A stretch of DNA of 5,745 bases from NCBI GenBank assembly GCA_008501785.1, contig QQUD01000118.1, positions 1 to 5,745 of the forward strand, in the 5' to 3' direction. The position numbers and the translations under genes were made by a program. Of the stretch, positions 2-5,661 are shown piece by piece. Numbering within the stretch: position 1 is the stretch's first letter; each line of letters starts with the position of its first letter. The stretch is from Chloroflexota bacterium. GTDB taxonomy: Bacteria > Chloroflexota > Anaerolineae > Promineifilales > Promineifilaceae. The notes below the pieces were generated by a model that did no database searches, was not told the DNA's origin, and saw nothing but the letters and a program-made list of their open reading frames with translations.

Positions 2-895
2 CACGATTCAATTTTTGCTGAACAAGGCGAATGGGGTGGGCTTGGTTCCGACACGACTGATTATTTTGGTGATCTGGCAGAAAGTATTGGACTTGACAGC
101 GATACACTGACAGCTTGTATGACCAGCGGCAAATATGATGATGTGGTGCAGGCCAATTTAGAAGAAGGTATGTCATTAGGCATTACAGGCACGCCAAGCT
201 TTTTTGTCGACGGGTTCCCGCTGGTTGGTGCTCGACCCATTGAACATTTTGAACTGGCTGTCACCTATGCCGAAGAAGGCACATTAGCAGATGCCTACGT
301 GCAATCTGCGCCACAGCCAGAACCAACGGCGGCACCAACCGGACCGGTTGAAGTACCCGAAGGGGATGCGTTTGTGATTGGCGACCCAGATGCGCCGGTA
401 ACAATTGTGGAGTACACAGACTTCCAATGTCCTTACTGTGGTCGTCACTTTGCCCAAACCTTCCCGCAAATCAAAGAGAATTTTATTGATACGGGTGTGG
501 TGCGCTATGTGTTTAAAGATTTCCCACTCACTGCAATTCATCCACAAGCAACGGCCGCCTCGGAAGCAGCCCGGTGTGCTGGTGATCAGGGCGAATATTT
601 AGCAATGCATGATGTGATTTTTGAGACGCAGGGTGAGTGGAGCGGCCGTTCCGACGCCAACGATCTCTTCACTGGATATGCTGGCAACTTGGGTTTGGAC
701 ACCGACAGCTTTAGTGAATGTCTTGAAAGTGGCAAATATACAGCCGCCGTCGAAGCAGACGCGGCAGAAGGAAGCCAGCTAGGCGTAAATGGCACACCGG
801 CCTTCTTCATTAATGGCTACTTCATTTCCGGTGCACAGCCTTATGAACTGTTTGAAGAGGCGATTGCACAGTTGGCGACGGGGGAGCTAGAGTAA
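2..895 (+). CDS. Tandem DsbA-like thioredoxin-fold protein, 5' end truncated by window edge
   Basis: The reading frame is open from base 2, so the gene starts before the window; 297 residues are visible. Residues 1 to about 90 are the C-terminal part of one DsbA-like domain, with the cis-proline loop GTPSFFVDG. A Pro/Ala/Glu-rich linker follows (about residues 100-120). The rest is a complete second DsbA-like domain: strand VTIVEYTDF, active site CPYC (Cys 143 and 146; TGT codons 428-430 and 437-439) and cis-Pro loop GTPAFFING. Two further cysteines (EAARCAG and FSECLES) could form a structural disulfide. The visible part of domain one aligns well with the matching part of domain two, which shows an internal duplication. 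Members of this family (DsbA/BdbD, Thioredoxin_4) are exported thiol-disulfide oxidoreductases. Whether domain one has its own CxxC, and the signal peptide, cannot be seen. The internal ATG at 119 is not the start because homology continues upstream of it. Confidence 0.92.
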   Translation, partial: HDSIFAEQGEWGGLGSDTTDYFGDLAESIGLDSDTLTACMTSGKYDDVVQANLEEGMSLGITGTPSFFVDGFPLVGARPIEHFELAVTYAEEGTLADAYVQSAPQPEPTAAPTGPVEVPEGDAFVIGDPDAPVTIVEYTDFQCPYCGRHFAQTFPQIKENFIDTGVVRYVFKDFPLTAIHPQATAASEAARCAGDQGEYLAMHDVIFETQGEWSGRSDANDLFTGYAGNLGLDTDSFSECLESGKYTAAVEADAAEGSQLGVNGTPAFFINGYFISGAQPYELFEEAIAQLATGELE

Positions 896-923: not shown

Positions 924-993
924 ACCGCAGGAAACGCTGAGAACGCTGAGGAAGAGGTGAAAAAATCTCTGTGCTCTCAGCGACCTCTGCGGT
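924..993. repeat. Imperfect palindromic intergenic element (hairpin-forming, MITE/REP-like)
   Basis: ACCGCAG (924-930) pairs with CTGCGGT (987-993), and CGCTGAGA (935-942) pairs with TCTCAGCG (975-982). Pairing continues inward with mismatches and wobbles (944-951 with 966-973). The left arm holds a tandem ACGCTGAG (934-941 and 943-950). The whole can fold as one 70-nt hairpin. Such CGCTGAG/CTCAGCG palindromes between genes resemble dispersed non-coding palindromic repeats found in many copies in some bacterial genomes; that is recollection, not tested here. It could end DsbA transcription or act in the leader of the kinase gene. No T-run follows it. Confidence 0.65.
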
Positions 994-1006
994 TGGTTCT
1001 CTTTTT

Positions 1007-1011
1007 GGAGG
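1007..1011 (+). promoter_or_regulatory. Shine-Dalgarno GGAGG that sets the kinase start at GTG 1019
   Basis: GGAGG lies seven bases before GTG 1019, which is ideal spacing. An alternative in-frame GTG at 971 has a GAGGTGA ten bases upstream. That start lies inside the palindromic element and would add 16 residues encoded mostly by repeat DNA, so 1019 is preferred. Confidence 0.65.
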
Positions 1012-1018
1012 GGGACTT

Positions 1019-1972
1019 GTGGTTGACTTGGGGTGTTTTGCGGCTGAGTTGGTTGGGGATTCGGCTGCACTAAAGGAGTGTTGGGGAGCTGTTTTCAAGC
1101 CTTTTTTATGTGACCGGGTAGACAATTCTATTCCTGTTGAACTGCATGTGGTTGAAGATTTTAGACAATCGCAGGCGGTTTTATTTTTGGATGCGTATGG
1201 GGAGTATTTGGGAAAACGGCCGTTTTTCACCCACCCCCTTTCTCAATTTGCAGTTTACGCCGCCGGTGACAATGCGTTTTTGCTTGTATTTCAGAATGCG
1301 GCGATCGTACATGTGTCGGTTACTGGAACAGGTTTAGTTCGAGGTGTAGTTCATGAACAGGGGGTGGCAAACGGCCGTTTTGAAGACATTTTGTACACGG
1401 CACTGGCCCCCATTTTGCGACGGCGTCGTATTTATCTGGTTCATTCATTTGCGGCGGAGAAAAACGGCCGTTGTGTATTAATTGTCGGACCGCCTGGGAG
1501 TGGCAAAACAACGGCTGGCTTGAGTCTGCTGCAAGCAGGTTGGCAGTTGCTGAGCAATGATGTGACGCTGCTCACGCAATCGGATAAAGACGTAGTGGCT
1601 TGGCCGACACCAGGTTATTTTGGCATTCGTCCACACACAATTGAGATGCTGCCTGACTTGGAGATTAAGTCGGGGGTTGCCGAAATGCATCAGGTTTTGG
1701 AGGCGTTAAACGGCCGTTTCGGCACACCAACACTAATCACCCACCTCATTTTCCCTCAGGTAAACGCACATGCTGAAACAAAACTCACGCCTCTCGCCGC
1801 TGCTGCTGGATGGTCACGCTTGATGAGTGAGAGCATGGATTGCTGGGATAAAGAGACGTTGGCGGCTCATTTGGCTGTTTTGAAGGCAGTTTGTGGGAAA
1901 ACGGCCGTTTTCTCTTTACAATCTGGCATCAACATTGATCAACTTGATCGACTGCTCGCAATGGAGGCGTAG
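1019..1972 (+). CDS. HPr kinase-like (HprK-related) P-loop serine kinase
   Basis: This is a 317-residue protein from GTG 1019. Residues 1 to about 140 form the variable N-terminal domain seen in HprK-related kinases. The nucleotide-binding core follows: the approach IYLVHSFAAEKNGR, then Walker A GPPGSGKTT at about residues 157-165, and an acidic LLSNDVTLL segment at about 178-186, the equivalent of the HprK Walker B/catalytic region. It lacks the DRTGG-type N-terminal domain of true HPr kinase/phosphorylase, and no HPr gene is nearby, so the substrate is unknown. HprK-related proteins are often found beside peptide-modification or export genes. Here the partner is the membrane protein whose ATG directly follows this stop codon, which suggests a two-gene operon. 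The gene holds five of the nine ACGGCCGT palindromes in the window. An upstream GTG at 971 would give 333 residues. The kinase-fold assignment is strong; true phosphotransfer activity is inferred. Confidence 0.82.
   Translation: MVDLGCFAAELVGDSAALKECWGAVFKPFLCDRVDNSIPVELHVVEDFRQSQAVLFLDAYGEYLGKRPFFTHPLSQFAVYAAGDNAFLLVFQNAAIVHVSVTGTGLVRGVVHEQGVANGRFEDILYTALAPILRRRRIYLVHSFAAEKNGRCVLIVGPPGSGKTTAGLSLLQAGWQLLSNDVTLLTQSDKDVVAWPTPGYFGIRPHTIEMLPDLEIKSGVAEMHQVLEALNGRFGTPTLITHLIFPQVNAHAETKLTPLAAAAGWSRLMSESMDCWDKETLAAHLAVLKAVCGKTAVFSLQSGINIDQLDRLLAMEA
1963..1967 (+). promoter_or_regulatory. Shine-Dalgarno of the M50-like gene, inside the kinase C-terminal codons
   Basis: GGAGG lies five bases before ATG 1973 and overlaps the last kinase codons (ATG GAG GCG TAG). 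The stop and start codons abut with no gap, a layout typical of translational coupling. Confidence 0.75.
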
Positions 1973-2509
1973 ATGCGTAAAAAATACACATTGTTACAAA
2001 TTGGAAACATCCCCATCACAACAACTCAATTGGCTTTAGTTAGCTCGCTTGTCCTCTGGATTGTTTTTGCGCTCATTGGCGCGTTGGGGTTTCAGCTTTC
2101 TCTGGGCAGCAGCATCTTAGGCGGGTTATTAGCGATGGTGCTGCACTGGGTTTCCGAATTATTGCATCAACTGGGTCATGCCTGGGTAGCAAGTCGAGTC
2201 GGGTATCCAATGCGTGAAATTCGGCTGCTGCATTTACTTGCTGGATCAGTCTATCCACGAGATGAACCGGATTTACCGGCAAAAATTCATATTCGGCGAG
2301 CGTTAGGTGGACCACCCGTCAGCTTTGGATTGGCAGGTGTGGGGGCACTTGTCCTATTTTTACAACAAGCCGATAGTGGATTATCTTATTTGCTAGCCCA
2401 GTTTGTTTTTTGGGAGAATTTGTTGGTATTTGGTTTGGGATCGCTGCTGCCGCTTGGGTTTACGGATGGGAGTACTTTGTTGGAATGGTGGCCAAAACGA
2501 AATCTGTAA
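1973..2509 (+). CDS. M50 (site-2 protease)-like integral membrane protein with HQxxH instead of HExxH
   Basis: This is a 178-residue protein. Hydrophobic stretches lie at about residues 18-40, 47-62, 117-131 and 138-160. The segment LLHQLGHAWVASRVGYP (64-80) matches the M50/S2P zinc-site region, usually HELGHA, but the catalytic glutamate is Gln (CAA, 2168-2170). The GGPPVSF segment (about 112-118) and the late LLPLGFTDGSTLL (158-170), with Asp 165 in the place of the third zinc ligand, complete the M50 layout. The zinc ligands are therefore kept while the general base is lost. It may be an inactive protease homologue or a divergent membrane metalloprotein. Translation is probably coupled to the kinase upstream. 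A single base change would convert Gln to Glu, so a sequencing error or recent mutation is possible, although the surrounding sequence is intact. Confidence 0.75.
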   Translation: MRKKYTLLQIGNIPITTTQLALVSSLVLWIVFALIGALGFQLSLGSSILGGLLAMVLHWVSELLHQLGHAWVASRVGYPMREIRLLHLLAGSVYPRDEPDLPAKIHIRRALGGPPVSFGLAGVGALVLFLQQADSGLSYLLAQFVFWENLLVFGLGSLLPLGFTDGSTLLEWWPKRNL

Positions 2510-2510
2510 A

Positions 2511-2569
2511 TATGGATGGGGAGAACACAGATTAGATTTATGTCGCTATCCGTGTTCTTCCTATCCATA
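2511..2569. terminator. Long inverted repeat between convergent genes, probable bidirectional terminator
   Basis: The arm at 2511-2528 (TATGGATGGGGAGAACAC) and the arm at 2552-2569 (GTGTTCTTCCTATCCATA) are complementary over 18 positions. Two positions pair only as G-T, and the loop is 23 nt. The hairpin begins two bases after the M50-like stop codon, and its right arm covers the stop codon of the convergent methyltransferase. Neither side has a clear T-run, so it may stabilise the 3' ends or work with Rho rather than act as a classic intrinsic terminator. Confidence 0.6.
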
Positions 2570-3169
2570 CTTTCGATACCAAAACCAGGCTGAATTCCAT
2601 AGGGGTTTATCTTCAACTTGTGTTGTCCCTATTTCAATATGCTCAAGCTGAAAATGTGGTTCAAACAAAGACTTTAAATGTGATTCGTCAACTGTAGGAG
2701 GGCCATCTTCAGGCTCTTCATCACCACTGGTGGTGCGGGCAAACAGCAAAAACTGTGCTTTTGGAACCAGTAGCCGCAGCAATTCATCCCGGTATGCCAG
2801 TTGATCAACTGCCAATAATGAATGAAAACAGCCCACATCTATTGCCAACGTATAAGATGCATTTAAAAAATGCAGATCGGCAACAGAACCTTGATAAAAG
2901 GTAGCTTTTTTAACTAGTTTTGCTTCTTGTGCTCGTTTGGTGGCTTCCGTAACGGCTTTCTGAATAAAATCAACACCATCTACCTGCCAACCGTGTCGAG
3001 CCAGGTAAATGGCAGAACGACCGTATCCACATCCCAAGTCCAACGCGCGACCCGGCGCTAACTTTTCTACCAGCGCCATCACCTCAGGCGGCGGCAGCTC
3101 ATCATCCCAAGGCAAACGACCCATCGCATAGCGTTCCTCAAATCTTTCGTACCGATTTTGCTCACTCAT
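2561..3169 (-). CDS. Class I SAM-dependent methyltransferase
   Basis: This is a 202-residue soluble protein with the usual order of motifs. The N-terminal GRLPWDDELPPPEV (about 17-30) is typical of the TehB/thiopurine-methyltransferase-like group. Motif I is LDLGCGYGRSA (43-53), the acidic strand-2 end is VDGVDF (63-68), strand 4 is LAIDVGCFHSL (108-118), and LLRLLVPKAQFLLF is the usual late strand and helix. All SAM-contact glycines are present, so it is probably active. The substrate is unknown; the family acts on small molecules or oxyanions as well as other targets. ATG 3169 is supported by GGAG on the minus strand at 3180-3177, seven bases upstream. It is divergent from the glycosidase gene with only 25 bp between start codons and convergent with the M50-like gene. 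It contains no ACGGCCGT palindrome. Confidence 0.88.
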   Translation of the reverse strand: MSEQNRYERFEERYAMGRLPWDDELPPPEVMALVEKLAPGRALDLGCGYGRSAIYLARHGWQVDGVDFIQKAVTEATKRAQEAKLVKKATFYQGSVADLHFLNASYTLAIDVGCFHSLLAVDQLAYRDELLRLLVPKAQFLLFARTTSGDEEPEDGPPTVDESHLKSLFEPHFQLEHIEIGTTQVEDKPLWNSAWFWYRKYG

Positions 3170-3176
3170 TGTTAAA

Positions 3177-3180
3177 CTCC
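3177..3180 (-). promoter_or_regulatory. Shine-Dalgarno of the minus-strand methyltransferase
   Basis: CTCC on the plus strand reads GGAG on the minus strand, seven bases before ATG 3169. This supports the chosen start. Confidence 0.6.
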
Positions 3181-3182
3181 AT

Positions 3183-3188
3183 TACAAT
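3183..3188 (+). promoter_or_regulatory. Candidate -10 box (TACAAT) for a leaderless glycosidase transcript
   Basis: TACAAT ends six bases before ATG 3195, which would put transcription initiation at or next to the start codon. TTGCTC at 3158-3163 is only a weak -35 candidate with 19-bp spacing. No Shine-Dalgarno precedes the ATG, which fits leaderless expression. This is inferred from sequence only. Confidence 0.35.
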
Positions 3189-3194
3189 ATTAAC

Positions 3195-4070
3195 ATGATG
3201 AAGCAATTTTTTAACACACAGTATGCGATAAGTGTTCAATACACGATCAAATTATTAATAGTCTTCCTCTTTTTGGTAAGCGGCACGATCGGTTGCCAAA
3301 CAAATGTTTACAGCGAAGATTCTACGGATAGTGCCACTTACCTCCCGCTTGTGCAACGACCTGGTGATATTTGGCAGCCGTCTCCAGGGGTAAGCTGGCA
3401 ATGGCAGCTTACAGGTGAAATTGACACCAGCTTTGATGTGGAGATGTATGATATTGATTTGTTTGACACGCCCCAATCAACAATTGATTTGTTGCATGAA
3501 AACGGCCGTATTGTCATCTGTTACTTCAGTGCAGGCAGCTACGAAAATTGGCGGTCAGATGCTGGTCAATTCCCAGCATCGGTGCTAGGCAACACGCTTG
3601 ATGGCTGGCCCGATGAACGGTGGCTCGACGTGCGAGCCATCAGCCAGTTAGAACCGATTATGATGGCGCGGCTCGACCTTGCTGTCAGCAAAGGCTGCGA
3701 CGGCGTTGAGCCAGATAATATGGATGGATACTCAAATGATTCGGGGTTCCCACTCACCGGACAAGACCAGCTCGATTACAACATCTGGCTGGCATCTGCC
3801 GCCCATGATCGAAATTTGTCTATCGGCTTAAAAAATGATTTAGATCAAATCCCAGATTTGGTCAGCTATTATGACTGGGCGCTGAATGAGCAATGTTATC
3901 AATATAATGAGTGCGAGTTGTTACGGCCGTTTACCAATGCCGGTAAAGCTGTGTTTGGGGTTGAATATCAGGGTAATTCAGCTCAATTTTGCCCCTATTT
4001 CAACAATCTCGACTTTGATTGGCTGCTAAAAGAGCTGGACCTGGGTCCAACTAGAACATCGTGTCGCTAA
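3195..4070 (+). CDS. Secreted GH114-type glycosidase (endo-alpha-1,4-polygalactosaminidase family)
   Basis: This is a 291-residue protein. An N-terminal export signal has a hydrophobic core at about 19-32, ending in SGTIGC (Cys 34). This is a plausible but imperfect lipobox because Thr is at -3, so it may be a lipoprotein or simply secreted. A short linker contains YLPLV (49-53). The catalytic TIM-barrel region then follows GH114 order: WQWQLTGEID, YDIDLFDT, IVICYFSAGSYENWR (106-120), WLDVR, the acidic loop GCDGVEPDNMDGY (167-179), LSIGLKND and YYDWALNEQCY (225-235). The 167-179 loop is the likely active-site region. GH114 enzymes cut alpha-1,4-linked galactosamine polymers of capsule, exopolysaccharide or biofilm; the exact substrate here is inferred. 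The start could also be the second ATG at 3198. There is no Shine-Dalgarno. The methyltransferase-like gene follows after 42 bp. Confidence 0.85.
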   Translation: MMKQFFNTQYAISVQYTIKLLIVFLFLVSGTIGCQTNVYSEDSTDSATYLPLVQRPGDIWQPSPGVSWQWQLTGEIDTSFDVEMYDIDLFDTPQSTIDLLHENGRIVICYFSAGSYENWRSDAGQFPASVLGNTLDGWPDERWLDVRAISQLEPIMMARLDLAVSKGCDGVEPDNMDGYSNDSGFPLTGQDQLDYNIWLASAAHDRNLSIGLKNDLDQIPDLVSYYDWALNEQCYQYNECELLRPFTNAGKAVFGVEYQGNSAQFCPYFNNLDFDWLLKELDLGPTRTSCR

Positions 4071-4097
4071 CAACTACGATCATTTACTCTATTTCAG

Positions 4098-4103
4098 TAT
4101 ACT
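4098..4103 (+). promoter_or_regulatory. Candidate -10 box (TATACT) close to ATG 4113
   Basis: TATACT lies nine bases before ATG 4113 in the 42-bp gap after the glycosidase gene, and no Shine-Dalgarno is evident. A nearly leaderless transcript is possible. No good -35 is visible, and read-through from the glycosidase promoter is equally plausible. Confidence 0.28.
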
Positions 4104-4112
4104 TGTGCAGAT

Positions 4113-4937
4113 ATGAATAGCAGCAGATATAACGGTTTACGCCATTTTATTTATGCGGAGTGGCCTCTGTTTGCGAGTTTGTACGGAGGTATGGTTTTCG
4201 CATTGCTGGTCGTTGGTATAAGTGCGACGCAGGGATGGTTCTCGTTTATCCCGATGGCAACGGCCGTTCTGCTCATCTTCATCTTCTTTTTGCTGGCCAC
4301 CTTGTGGAGCGCGTACCAACTGTATGATATCGGTGGTCTGCGACCTCATCATGTTCTATTTGATATGGGGCAAATTCAGGCAAATGATACATTTATATTT
4401 ATCGATCTGGGCTATCGGCGACGAGCGATTAATCTGAGCCGCCGTTTAACGACAGGACGTATCATTGTACTCGATATTTATAATCCACAATGGACAACAA
4501 ACCCAGCATTGGTACGCTTACGTAAACGAATGCCAATTCCACCACCCGACCCACGCATCTCGCTGCGTGATGCCAGCATGGACCTGATTCCACTCCCAGA
4601 CGAAAGCGTATCATCTGTCATGTTGTGCCAAATTGCTTCTGAACTGTGGCAACAAGGGGATCAACTCACCTTACTGAAGGAAGTTCACAGGGTTTTAACG
4701 CCAAACGGCCGTTTACTTTTAGCAGAAAGAACCCGTACACAAACCAATTGGCTGGTCATGGGACTCATGGCTCTCAACTTGAAACGGCGTGAAGATTGGG
4801 AACAGTTATTAAACACAGCAGGGTTTGTGGTAAGGCGCACGCAAGACCTTTCAGGCTTGATAAGTTGTTTTCGGGCCGACAAACCATCTCCCGCAGAAGC
4901 ACAGCAAATGGCATTGGACTTGGCATTTGATGCTTAA
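4113..4937 (+). CDS. Membrane-anchored methyltransferase-like protein with degenerate SAM motif I
   Basis: This is a 274-residue protein. Two hydrophobic helices lie at about 19-37 and 45-67, followed by a cytoplasmic domain with the class I methyltransferase layout. This comprises FIFIDLGYRRRAINLSRRL (motif I position, 94-112), IIVLDIYNP (117-125, acidic end of strand 2), DLIPLPDESVSSVMLCQIASE (157-177, strand 4 region typical of Methyltransf_11) and LLKEVHRVLTPNGRLLLAER (187-206). Motif I keeps the first D-x-G, but the later glycines are replaced by Tyr-Arg-Arg-Arg, so SAM binding may be weakened or different. The C-terminal EDWEQLLNTAGFVVRR is also family-like. It may modify a membrane-associated lipid or quinone-type substrate, or be a non-catalytic homologue; both are inference. 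Two ACGGCCGT palindromes lie inside. It is probably co-oriented with the glycosidase by chance or in a loose operon. Confidence 0.78.
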   Translation: MNSSRYNGLRHFIYAEWPLFASLYGGMVFALLVVGISATQGWFSFIPMATAVLLIFIFFLLATLWSAYQLYDIGGLRPHHVLFDMGQIQANDTFIFIDLGYRRRAINLSRRLTTGRIIVLDIYNPQWTTNPALVRLRKRMPIPPPDPRISLRDASMDLIPLPDESVSSVMLCQIASELWQQGDQLTLLKEVHRVLTPNGRLLLAERTRTQTNWLVMGLMALNLKRREDWEQLLNTAGFVVRRTQDLSGLISCFRADKPSPAEAQQMALDLAFDA

Positions 4938-5226: not shown

Positions 5227-5661
5227 AAGACAGCGCCAAACACAACATCGCAAACAATAAACTAAAGGCGCTGTCGAAATTAAAAAAGGCTCTGCTGTGA
5301 AACAAGCAGTACCGAGCAAAGCCCAAATAACTTAGAAATTTAATTACTTAACAACAAACTCTCATCGAAAACAGGTAAACCTTAAGGAGGTGATAAGGAA
5401 CCGTGTCTGATTTGTAGGCTGCATTTCAGACCGTTAAAAAAAGGGAAAACAATTCAGCCAAATGCGTGAAGAAGAACATCATCGTCAAATCTTACTGAAG
5501 AAGCAAACAGTGATGAACGTTTAAGCCTAGTGCTTAATATATCAGATTTGAAGGTGAGAACGTAAAAAAATATATAGCGTGAAGAAAGCAAACCGGCACC
5601 TACCCCCTGAAAGAGCAACACGTTACTCCTCAGGATAAGGTGCCGGTCTTTTTTTGCTTTC
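5227..5661 (+). ncRNA. Candidate structured noncoding RNA of unknown class, about 430 nt
   Basis: The region lacks a credible protein gene but is dense in complementary segments, in this order. GACAGCGCC (5229-5237) pairs with GGCGCTGTC (5267-5275), 9 bp perfect. GGCT + CTGCT (5288-5296) pairs with AGCAG (5305-5309) + AGCC (5320-5323). GGT and CCTTA (5374-5376, 5380-5384) pair with TAAGG and ACC (5394-5398, 5400-5402), displaying AGGAGGTGA in the loop. GTCTGA (5405-5410) pairs with TCAGAC (5426-5431). The loop of that hairpin, GGCTG (5417-5421), matches CAGCC (5455-5459) as a possible pseudoknot. TCAAATCT (5485-5492) pairs with AGATTTGA (5544-5551), enclosing hairpins ACTG/CAGT (5494-5511) and TTAAGC/GCTTAA (5521-5537) as a three-way junction. 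A strong terminator ends it. I find no signature of tmRNA, RNase P RNA, SRP RNA, group I or II introns, T-box or common riboswitches. Boundaries are inferred. It could be a free RNA or the leader of a gene beyond the window. Confidence 0.5.
5584..5661 (+). terminator. Strong intrinsic terminator with extended, branched-looking stem
   Basis: ACCGGCACCT (5592-5601) pairs with AGGTGCCGGT (5638-5647), followed by CTTTTTTT. Outside this, GAAAGCAAA (5584-5592) matches TTTGCTTTC (5653-5661), so the structure could also work on the minus strand. Inside the stem, CCTGA (5606-5610) pairs with TCAGG (5630-5634), and GAG/CTC and AAC/GTT continue towards the tip. The structured apex is more elaborate than a plain terminator loop needs, so it may also be a functional 3' domain of the RNA. 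Confidence 0.85.

Follow-up and report, generated by a model that had tools for sequence, protein, structure and literature searches.

Highly iterated palindromes (HIPs) are GC-rich palindromes that occur genome-wide at about 1000-2000 copies per Mb, as Elhai 2015 (PMC4390886) describes the class. According to that paper, HIP1 has been known from cyanobacteria since 1995, and there is still no settled account of its function; in some relatives a different palindrome takes the place of the cyanobacterial HIP, and octamers one base away from the HIP are avoided when the mismatch lies in the core but tolerated when it lies in the outer pair. The methyl-directed rule published there for CGATCG requires a G before the methylated first C, and the HIP1 model levels off at about one site per kb. 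Also highly repeated are the DNA uptake sequences (DUS) of the Neisseriaceae, whose dialects combine an invariant core, CTG, with lineage-specific flanks and a ComP-type receptor (Frye 2013, PMC3630211); the stem “palindrom” is absent from the text of that paper. Here we examine the octamer ACGGCCGT, which recurs in a 5,745-bp stretch of Chloroflexota DNA (contig QQUD01000118.1; hereafter “the window”). It is the HIP of its lineage: CGGCCG forms its core, and its outer base pair varies by lineage.

Descriptively, the Chloroflexota palindrome matches the HIP class, but it differs from the known case in core, dialect variety and polarity. Like HIP1 (GCGATCGC), it is a GC-rich palindromic octamer found about once per kb. 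It is not HIP1 itself, which has no copy in the window and only one in 20 related loci. Unlike HIP1, it is built on CGGCCG, resides in another phylum, and exists in several outer-pair dialects within one order. With the DUS it shares a high copy number and an invariant core with lineage-specific flanks, although CTG is not a palindrome.

The window holds nine copies of ACGGCCGT (Table 1). Two hundred dinucleotide-preserving shuffles yield a mean of 0.07 and a maximum of 2, and synonymous codon shuffles of its open reading frames (ORFs), which keep proteins and codon usage, yield 0.5±0.6. The initial annotation had located all nine copies correctly and had them read in three frames, which is indeed the case: ACGGCCGT is read as Thr-Ala-Val twice, x-Gly-Arg five times and Arg-Pro-x twice. 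The near-forms that it pointed out at 552-557 and 643-648 are each an intact CGGCCG with one outer-base mismatch. Its statement that every copy lies within coding sequence is true of the window but does not hold as a rule; relatives carry intergenic copies, with 85 in 90.8 kb (0.94 per kb, vs 1.73 in ORFs) in the stretches from the 27 relatives introduced below. The called ORFs of the window offer 10 positions at which the octamer is permitted, nine of which are filled. The uneven spread of the copies over the genes thus arises because the proteins permit the site only at certain positions.

Whole-genome counts, fill, skew and the like were taken from relatives' genomes rather than from the window's own. 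These relatives (G labels) are drafts, many of them metagenome assemblies without completeness figures, in which an “absent” gene may be unassembled. ORFs in all loci are the longest non-overlapping frames rather than gene-caller output, and the sampling was non-random, as much of the sequence surrounds, or shares contigs with, methyltransferase or rpoB matches. Among the best 120 of 179 matches to the window's membrane methyltransferase, the named homologues are from Chloroflexota, including Ardenticatenaceae, Promineifilaceae and Candidatus Leptofilum. The first relatives were 20 loci from a GTDB contig scan, all Chloroflexota-type metagenome assemblies, and in 18 of them the commonest 8-mer palindrome is ACGGCCGT. 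The whole genomes of 18 of the 20 contain 2,984-12,866 copies, with 40-403 copies there of the reversed octamer, which served as a control; the exceptions are G018 (202 copies) and G019, where 14 copies stand against 3,665 of TGCCGGCA, which is the reversed octamer. Across the order to which G001 belongs, 27 of 56 genomes carry 2,984-15,176 copies (control, 40-459), a density of ~990-2100 per Mb by rounded genome sizes, or one every 0.5-1 kb. The genome count is thus not near a Markov expectation, nor does codon-pair usage fully explain it, the count being that of relatives; with thousands of copies in their genomes, the HIP1-like reading proposed in the initial annotation is borne out.

Among 300 further genomes drawn from the phylum, the maximum is 646 copies, in G164 of the same order; the 299 from outside the order have at most 471. 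Four of the phylum's genomes (G072, G260, G308 and G310) have no copy, and several other multi-Mb Chloroflexota genomes have 1-3, which suggests avoidance there. An rpoB tree was built by a quick method for 50 of the 56 genomes and leaves several forks open. It places all 23 ACGGCCGT genomes for which rpoB was recovered in a single 32-row group, whose support of 92 is below the tool's mark of 95. The same group takes in G329, the intermediate genome, and eight low ones, namely G334 plus seven of the G336-G342/G164 set; a second group, of 12 rows, holds the other palindromes and three low genomes. We found no paper on the ACGGCCGT palindrome in the open-licence PMC literature, where the letters of the octamer do occur.

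The pressure can be expressed by the fill, that is, the share of positions where the peptide allows the octamer through synonymous codons that actually spell it; this fraction is a sharp quantitative measure. After 31 overlapping loci of 260 were dropped, 148 loci of the 27 genomes gave a fill of 2945/3343 (88%), where codon usage predicts 9.1%. In the Thr-Ala-Val frame it was 1546/1605, and the lowest value among HIP-rich genomes was 12/23, in G008. (Shuffle, near-miss, peptide, frame and skew counts were not de-duplicated, and small loci and L151-L180 entered few counts other than de-duplicated fill.) That selection or copying acts on DNA and not on a protein motif, as the initial annotation had put it, is upheld by 1419 copies vs 178 by synonymous codon shuffle (8-fold, 906 kb), by the use of three frames and by the intergenic copies.

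Near-misses in the core are depleted relative to synonymous shuffles in the 27 genomes, with 20 vs 268 for ACCGCCGT (13-fold), 20 vs 103 for ACAGCCGT and 25 vs 74 for ACTGCCGT. Mismatches at positions 2 and 4 stand at 0.45-0.75 of expectation, and outer mismatches are not depleted (0.93-3.0). In this the palindrome resembles the HIP class, and for the ACGGCCGT genomes the pattern is clear. For the T and G dialects, treated below, the avoidance is clear at position 3 only (9 vs 36.7 and 2 vs 29.5, respectively), the other positions being mixed and their counts low (TTGGCCGA, 15 vs 9.1; in G344, 4 vs 10.7 for outer mismatches). The intervals between HIPs are near exponential (mean 536 bp, coefficient of variation (CV) 0.97, 1348 intervals), which rules out regular spacing. 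Pairs less than 20 bp apart number 9 vs 29 expected, and 5-kb windows are somewhat overdispersed (variance/mean 1.54), with 5 of 134 lacking a HIP. Because permissive positions are filled and intervals are near exponential, HIP density looks driven more by opportunity than by a fixed spacing to be reached. Selection and periodicity of HIP1 are reportedly the subject of a 2018 paper in Nucleic Acids Research.

As in the HIP class, genomes poor in ACGGCCGT often have a different palindrome in its stead, though not all of them do. The T dialect, TCGGCCGA, occurs in G327 (57 copies vs 1.3 expected, 48 kb) and G335 (59 vs 2.6), with a combined fill of 158/218 where codon usage predicts 4.1%; the G dialect, GCGGCCGC, occurs in G344 (65 vs 1.6), with a fill of 78/101 and a prediction of 6.4%. 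The non-cognate fill in the 27 ACGGCCGT genomes is 2.7% for TCGGCCGA and 5.7% for GCGGCCGC, and CCGGCCGG reaches 7/17 in G016 and 9/46 in G333. Six genomes (G328, G347, G348, G349, G350 and G351) use CGGCCG without one fixed outer pair and are termed “core-only”, although G347 leans to ACGGCCGT, with 20/27 positions filled and 2,982 genome copies. G329, with 2,887 copies and little sequence for fill, is classed as intermediate, and the class of sparsely sampled genomes, G334, G338, G349 and G350 among them, rests on a few kb. No clear octamer was found in G330, G331, G336, G354 or G355, nor a replacement palindrome for every low genome; several low-copy genomes have a mild CGGCCG excess. The dialects extend beyond the octamer. 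The base next outwards is A in 0.85-0.88 of arms in G007 and G008, shows no preference in G321-G326, is A or T in 96% for TCGGCCGA and is C in 59% for GCGGCCGC; flank preferences reach -1 to -4 in all frames and at 83 intergenic sites.

Certain other palindromes merit mention. In G019, TGCCGGCA acts as another HIP, filling 25/44 permissive positions, and G334 has 886 copies of it; CGGCCG is nearly absent from the stretches of these two genomes (2 vs 18.5 by codon shuffle). Likewise, GCCGGC is nearly absent from the G344 stretches (L106, L107 and L194; 1 vs 26.5), and octamers of the CCGCGG type are under-represented where ACGGCCGT is the HIP.

Enrichment extends to the peptides that permit the site. 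In the 27 genomes, Thr-Ala-Val occurs 868 times vs 130 by residue shuffle (6.7x), and 830 of the 868 are spelled ACG GCC GTN; elsewhere the ACG GCC spelling is used in 23/304 Thr-Ala-[ILMF] and 273/825 Thr-Ala-[AEDGKRST]. The other permitting peptides of these genomes, [NDHY]GR and RP[FLSYCW], are at 2.9x and 1.4x, with a background for [NDHY]GR of 1.55x in the set without a HIP. In the T dialect, the values are 4.0x for SA[DE], 1.9x for [FLIV]GR and 0.95x for RP[IMTNKSR]; in the G dialect, they are 4.0x for AAA, 2.1x for [CRSG]GR and 1.5x for RP[LPHQR]. Outside the ACGGCCGT genomes, Thr-Ala-Val stands at 0.9x (T dialect), 0.3x (G dialect, 2 vs 7) and 0.8x (no-HIP set). Since the permitting peptides exceed residue shuffles, DNA-level pressure moves amino acids, and the shift goes mostly towards each lineage's own dialect.

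HIPs are also conserved. In syntenic alignments at 72% identity, 28/38 are kept, vs 12% of control 8-mers of like GC; the figures are 24/34 vs 22% at 79% identity and 36/39 vs 44% at 87%. Larger sets give 68/93 at 72% and 140/168 at 77%. Single mismatches account for 12 of 69 non-conserved sites in four pairs of genomes. Each genome of a pair served in turn as the starting point of the count, such that conserved sites enter twice.

A further property of these HIPs is a G/C strand skew: G exceeds C on the 5' side of each HIP and C exceeds G on the 3' side, in coding and intergenic DNA. With both arms folded, bases counted no further than halfway to the neighbouring HIP, and loci resampled, the 27 genomes (98 loci) give +0.316±0.010 at 3-12 bp, +0.166 at 13-30, +0.074 at 31-60, +0.040 at 61-120 and +0.033±0.003 at 121-240 bp. 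Intergenic HIPs taken alone give +0.315±0.035 at 3-12 bp. Skew is +0.264 in the T dialect, +0.337 in the G dialect and +0.30±0.10 at the window's nine sites. All 27 ACGGCCGT genomes as well as G327, G335 and G344 are skewed (+0.13 to +0.33 at 3-30 bp), and TGCCGGCA in G019 shows +0.11. Among the controls, TGGCCA and GCCGGC range from -0.013 to +0.027. A set of eight control palindromes ranges from -0.10 to +0.10 once the first two bases are passed, and CGGCCG ranges from -0.04 to +0.05 in genomes that have no HIP. Upstream, 4-fold degenerate sites at a distance of 7-12 bp have a G:C of 0.546:0.180; downstream, it is 0.196:0.577, with little change in A (0.130 vs 0.090) or T (0.143 vs 0.136); within 6 bp, A and T shift too, as the flank preference predicts. 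Deamination of C to T was discarded as the cause, given that past 6 bp the change at 4-fold sites is chiefly an exchange of G and C. A hairpin or extended inverted repeat of the REP or MITE type was likewise rejected: mirrored arms at 3-30 bp do not covary (12611 complementary pairs vs 12746 expected), and only the first flanking base does (658 vs 503). When pairs are pooled, conserved HIPs have a skew of +0.195 (n=208, two genome pairs), non-conserved HIPs one of +0.142 (n=69, four pairs) and the HIP-less orthologous sites of the latter one of +0.078 (the same four). Skew thus appears to accumulate where a HIP is present, but not in all pairs.

We show saturation, proteome bias, dialects and skew, all additions to the initial annotation, as well as core avoidance and conservation, in the relatives, and the window is in line with them as far as it allows a test. 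Their best explanation, to which we assign a probability of roughly 0.4, is that HIPs may be start points of biased conversion or repair with strand-polar tracts; among the causes that the initial annotation had suggested, a repair or recombination signal in our view fits the strand skew best, and a nucleoid-protein target is a possible alternative. A HIP would start a strand-polar transaction, namely a strand exchange or excision of the recombination or mismatch-repair type, and would do so in both directions because it is palindromic. Chi sites of RecBCD/AddAB are also GC-rich, overrepresented and tied to polar strand processing, but act in one orientation, whereas a palindromic HIP would act both ways. 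If repair or exchange near the site favoured the HIP-bearing strand, near-HIPs would become HIPs and loss would be rare; this ratchet would approach saturation and spill over into amino-acid changes. The exchange of G for C, in which A and T take little part past 6 bp, could arise if heteroduplex of one polarity extended outward from HIPs and C:C mismatches within it escaped repair while G:G mismatches were corrected. Such a polarity would fit MutS, which is blind to C:C mismatches but not to G:G. The outer base pair would be set by the lineage's recogniser, which would yield the dialects. A fuller version would have each of the ~3,000-15,000 HIPs per genome serve as a bidirectional start of strand-polar recombination or repair that wrote thousands of skew flips, drove near-saturation and bent the proteome towards Thr-Ala-Val, Ser-Ala-Asp/Glu or Ala-Ala-Ala by dialect, with the outer pair a heritable dialect that may isolate lineages; we hold it a shade more tentatively.

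Several observations weigh against conversion or repair from HIPs as the explanation. Core-only genomes are almost without skew (-0.05 to +0.07), and HIP1 on two cyanobacterial plasmids is only weakly skewed (+0.047±0.015 at 3-30 bp, n=224), unlike the long-range skew of the Chloroflexota, even though HIP1 saturates there too (350 kb, fill 190/326) and Ala-Ile-Ala is enriched (132 vs 37, 3.6-fold). The trend of skew with age is only suggestive: in G325/G321 non-conserved HIPs (+0.190±0.042) are not less skewed than conserved ones (+0.163±0.024), and in G325/G323 the HIP side equals its ortholog (n=7). The swap is only approximately one of G and C, because all-site data show a small excess of T over A (AT skew -0.14 at 9-11 bp) and some bins of the T and G dialects show an excess of A on the 5' side. 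Ala-Ala-Ala is not specific to the G dialect, as G019 has 30 vs 9 and the set without a HIP shows a mild excess (1.65x). Conserved HIPs have no substitution hot zone, with divergence of 0.214 at 1-2 bp, 0.159-0.186 out to 40 bp and 0.175 far away, and C/G substitutions at 3-12 bp (0.023-0.027) are fewer than further out (0.028-0.037); conserved control palindromes lie in divergence dips, as expected from the choice of conserved sites, and are not a clean baseline. A mutational hot spot is thus unsupported beyond 2 bp, and the rates speak for biased fixation, by conversion or by selection, and not for hypermutation. Plain selection on the flanks fits the flat divergence as well.

Such selection is the essence of the main rival, which we regard as somewhat unlikely: HIPs would bind an abundant chromosome-organising or segregation protein, the G-rich and C-rich arms would be part of its preferred site, and tiny selection per site would suffice in large populations. 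The strong conservation and saturation of HIPs, the flat or slightly lowered divergence at 3-12 bp and the extended flank preferences are all consistent with this idea. However, the skew reaches past 120 bp, beyond the usual length of a binding site, the spacing is near random, and the load would seem heavy if it had to sustain 6.7-fold enrichment of Thr-Ala-Val at thousands of sites. Less probable still is the ratchet of methyl-directed mismatch repair that Elhai 2015 put forward for HIP1, in which a methyltransferase would mark CGGCCG and biased repair would make HIPs. A candidate enzyme (see below) is present in most HIP genomes, and core mismatches are avoided and outer ones tolerated, as in HIP1; yet the Chloroflexota HIP breaks both the outer-base rule and the density limit of the published model, because its outer base is A, T or G and attainable positions are filled at any spacing, and the candidate is missing from some HIP genomes and found in others with no strong HIP. 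The dialects round an invariant core parallel those of the DUS in Frye 2013 (PMC3630211), and ComEC is found in 50/56 genomes, as would suit a self-recognition tag for natural transformation spread by molecular drive with species dialects. We consider this improbable, as ComEC does not track the HIP and uptake alone gives no evident reason for a paired strand skew. Many of the relatives being draft metagenome assemblies, an artefact of codon pairs, composition or assembly was also weighed; the 8-fold excess over synonymous shuffles, the intergenic copies, the flank-specific dialects and the near-zero control palindromes make its probability negligible. Finally, the strong enrichment of ACGGCCGT is not that of a restriction-modification site, which is expected to be avoided or neutral.

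The candidate enzyme just mentioned is a ~660-aa permuted DNA methyltransferase, here called the A2 family. It bears the motif DPMMGGGTT before TDPPYFDS, and matches PF01555 (E 1.3e-14) and, below the cut-off, DUF1156. At E <1e-90 it is found in 25/27 ACGGCCGT genomes and 3/3 flank-switched ones (28/30 8-mer HIP genomes), some matches being pieces at contig ends. It is a candidate part of the recogniser, and has a NurA gene as its neighbour (adjoining in G001, G007, G012, G016, G020, G327, G335 and G344, from both clades, and 4 kb off in G008). Other facts weaken its case. The enzyme is also present in 15/20 remaining genomes of the order without a strong HIP and in 0/6 core-only genomes, and it was not found in the HIP genomes G013 and G343, which have high fill and are skewed, such that the skew does not seem to be a property of this methyltransferase; nor was it found in G019 or G334. 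Outside the order, where at most four candidates per genome were scored, 10/299 genomes have it at E <1e-40, including a close match in G157, which has no HIP. A HerA-like gene follows NurA in G012, G327 and G335 (checked by Pfam in the latter two), but not in the G020 or G344 stretches. NurA, like ComEC, is present in 50/56 genomes, and neither is a phyletic marker of the HIP. The A2 enzyme is therefore a candidate partner that appears neither necessary nor sufficient, and its role as cause is plausible but unproven. Other candidates were set aside: a Vsr-type mismatch endonuclease occurs in 8/56 genomes and 6/27 HIP-rich ones, C5 methyltransferases (PF00145) have no match in 13/27 HIP-rich genomes, and ordinary N4/N6 methyltransferases (PF01555) form many unrelated families, with only weak matches in some HIP-rich genomes. 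Faster evolution of the A2 enzyme at dialect switches was discounted, its branch lengths scaling with those of rpoB by eye. We do note that NurA lies within ~1.2 kb of a different PF01555 methyltransferase in G322, G324 and G326, and that in G335 the methyltransferase frame is split into two overlapping frames (L200, G335:C1:577104-579030), by sequencing error or decay.

These findings provide a comparative test system for the HIP1 question, that is, whether selection, methyl-directed repair, uptake or conversion drive is at work, in another phylum whose HIP has an independent core, occurs in natural dialects and carries a strand polarity; the skew points to polar strand processing. DNA-level pressure reshapes the tripeptide content of the sampled proteins, which bears on models of protein evolution and codon usage. 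Further, the absence of HIPs may serve as a marker of foreign DNA or mis-binned contigs. In the HIP-rich genome G004, L088 (G004:C1, 16.8 kb) has three consecutive HIP-free 5-kb windows and is possibly mobile or mis-binned DNA.

Table 1. Palindromes, near-forms and ORFs of the window.
Feature	Position	Strand	Remarks
HIP copy 1, ACGGCCGT	1216..1223		kinase-like ORF
HIP copy 2, ACGGCCGT	1371..1378		kinase-like ORF
HIP copy 3, ACGGCCGT	1464..1471		kinase-like ORF
HIP copy 4, ACGGCCGT	1710..1717		kinase-like ORF
HIP copy 5, ACGGCCGT	1901..1908		kinase-like ORF, Thr-Ala-Val
HIP copy 6, ACGGCCGT	3502..3509		GH114-like ORF
HIP copy 7, ACGGCCGT	3923..3930		GH114-like ORF
HIP copy 8, ACGGCCGT	4260..4267		membrane methyltransferase-like ORF, Thr-Ala-Val
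HIP copy 9, ACGGCCGT	4705..4712		membrane methyltransferase-like ORF
Near-form ACGGCCGC, CGGCCG core, outer (8th) mismatch	551..558		DsbA-like ORF; mismatch class tolerated in relatives
Near-form GCGGCCGT, CGGCCG core, outer (1st) mismatch	642..649		DsbA-like ORF; mismatch class tolerated in relatives
Sole unfilled permissive position found in window ORFs, ACGACCGT, one core mismatch	3017..3024		Tyr-Gly-Arg on minus strand, soluble methyltransferase gene
Kinase-like ORF with P-loop, five copies	971..1972	+	Pfam matches sub-threshold only
GH114-like ORF, two copies	3195..4070	+	PF03537, E 7.1e-91
Membrane methyltransferase-like ORF, two copies	4113..4937	+	query used to find relatives

An Rfam search at gathering thresholds and a plasmid search in near mode returned no match to the window. 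In its noncoding end, at 5590-5655, an inverted repeat (accggcacct ... aggtgccggt) is followed by a T run and by eye resembles an intrinsic terminator.

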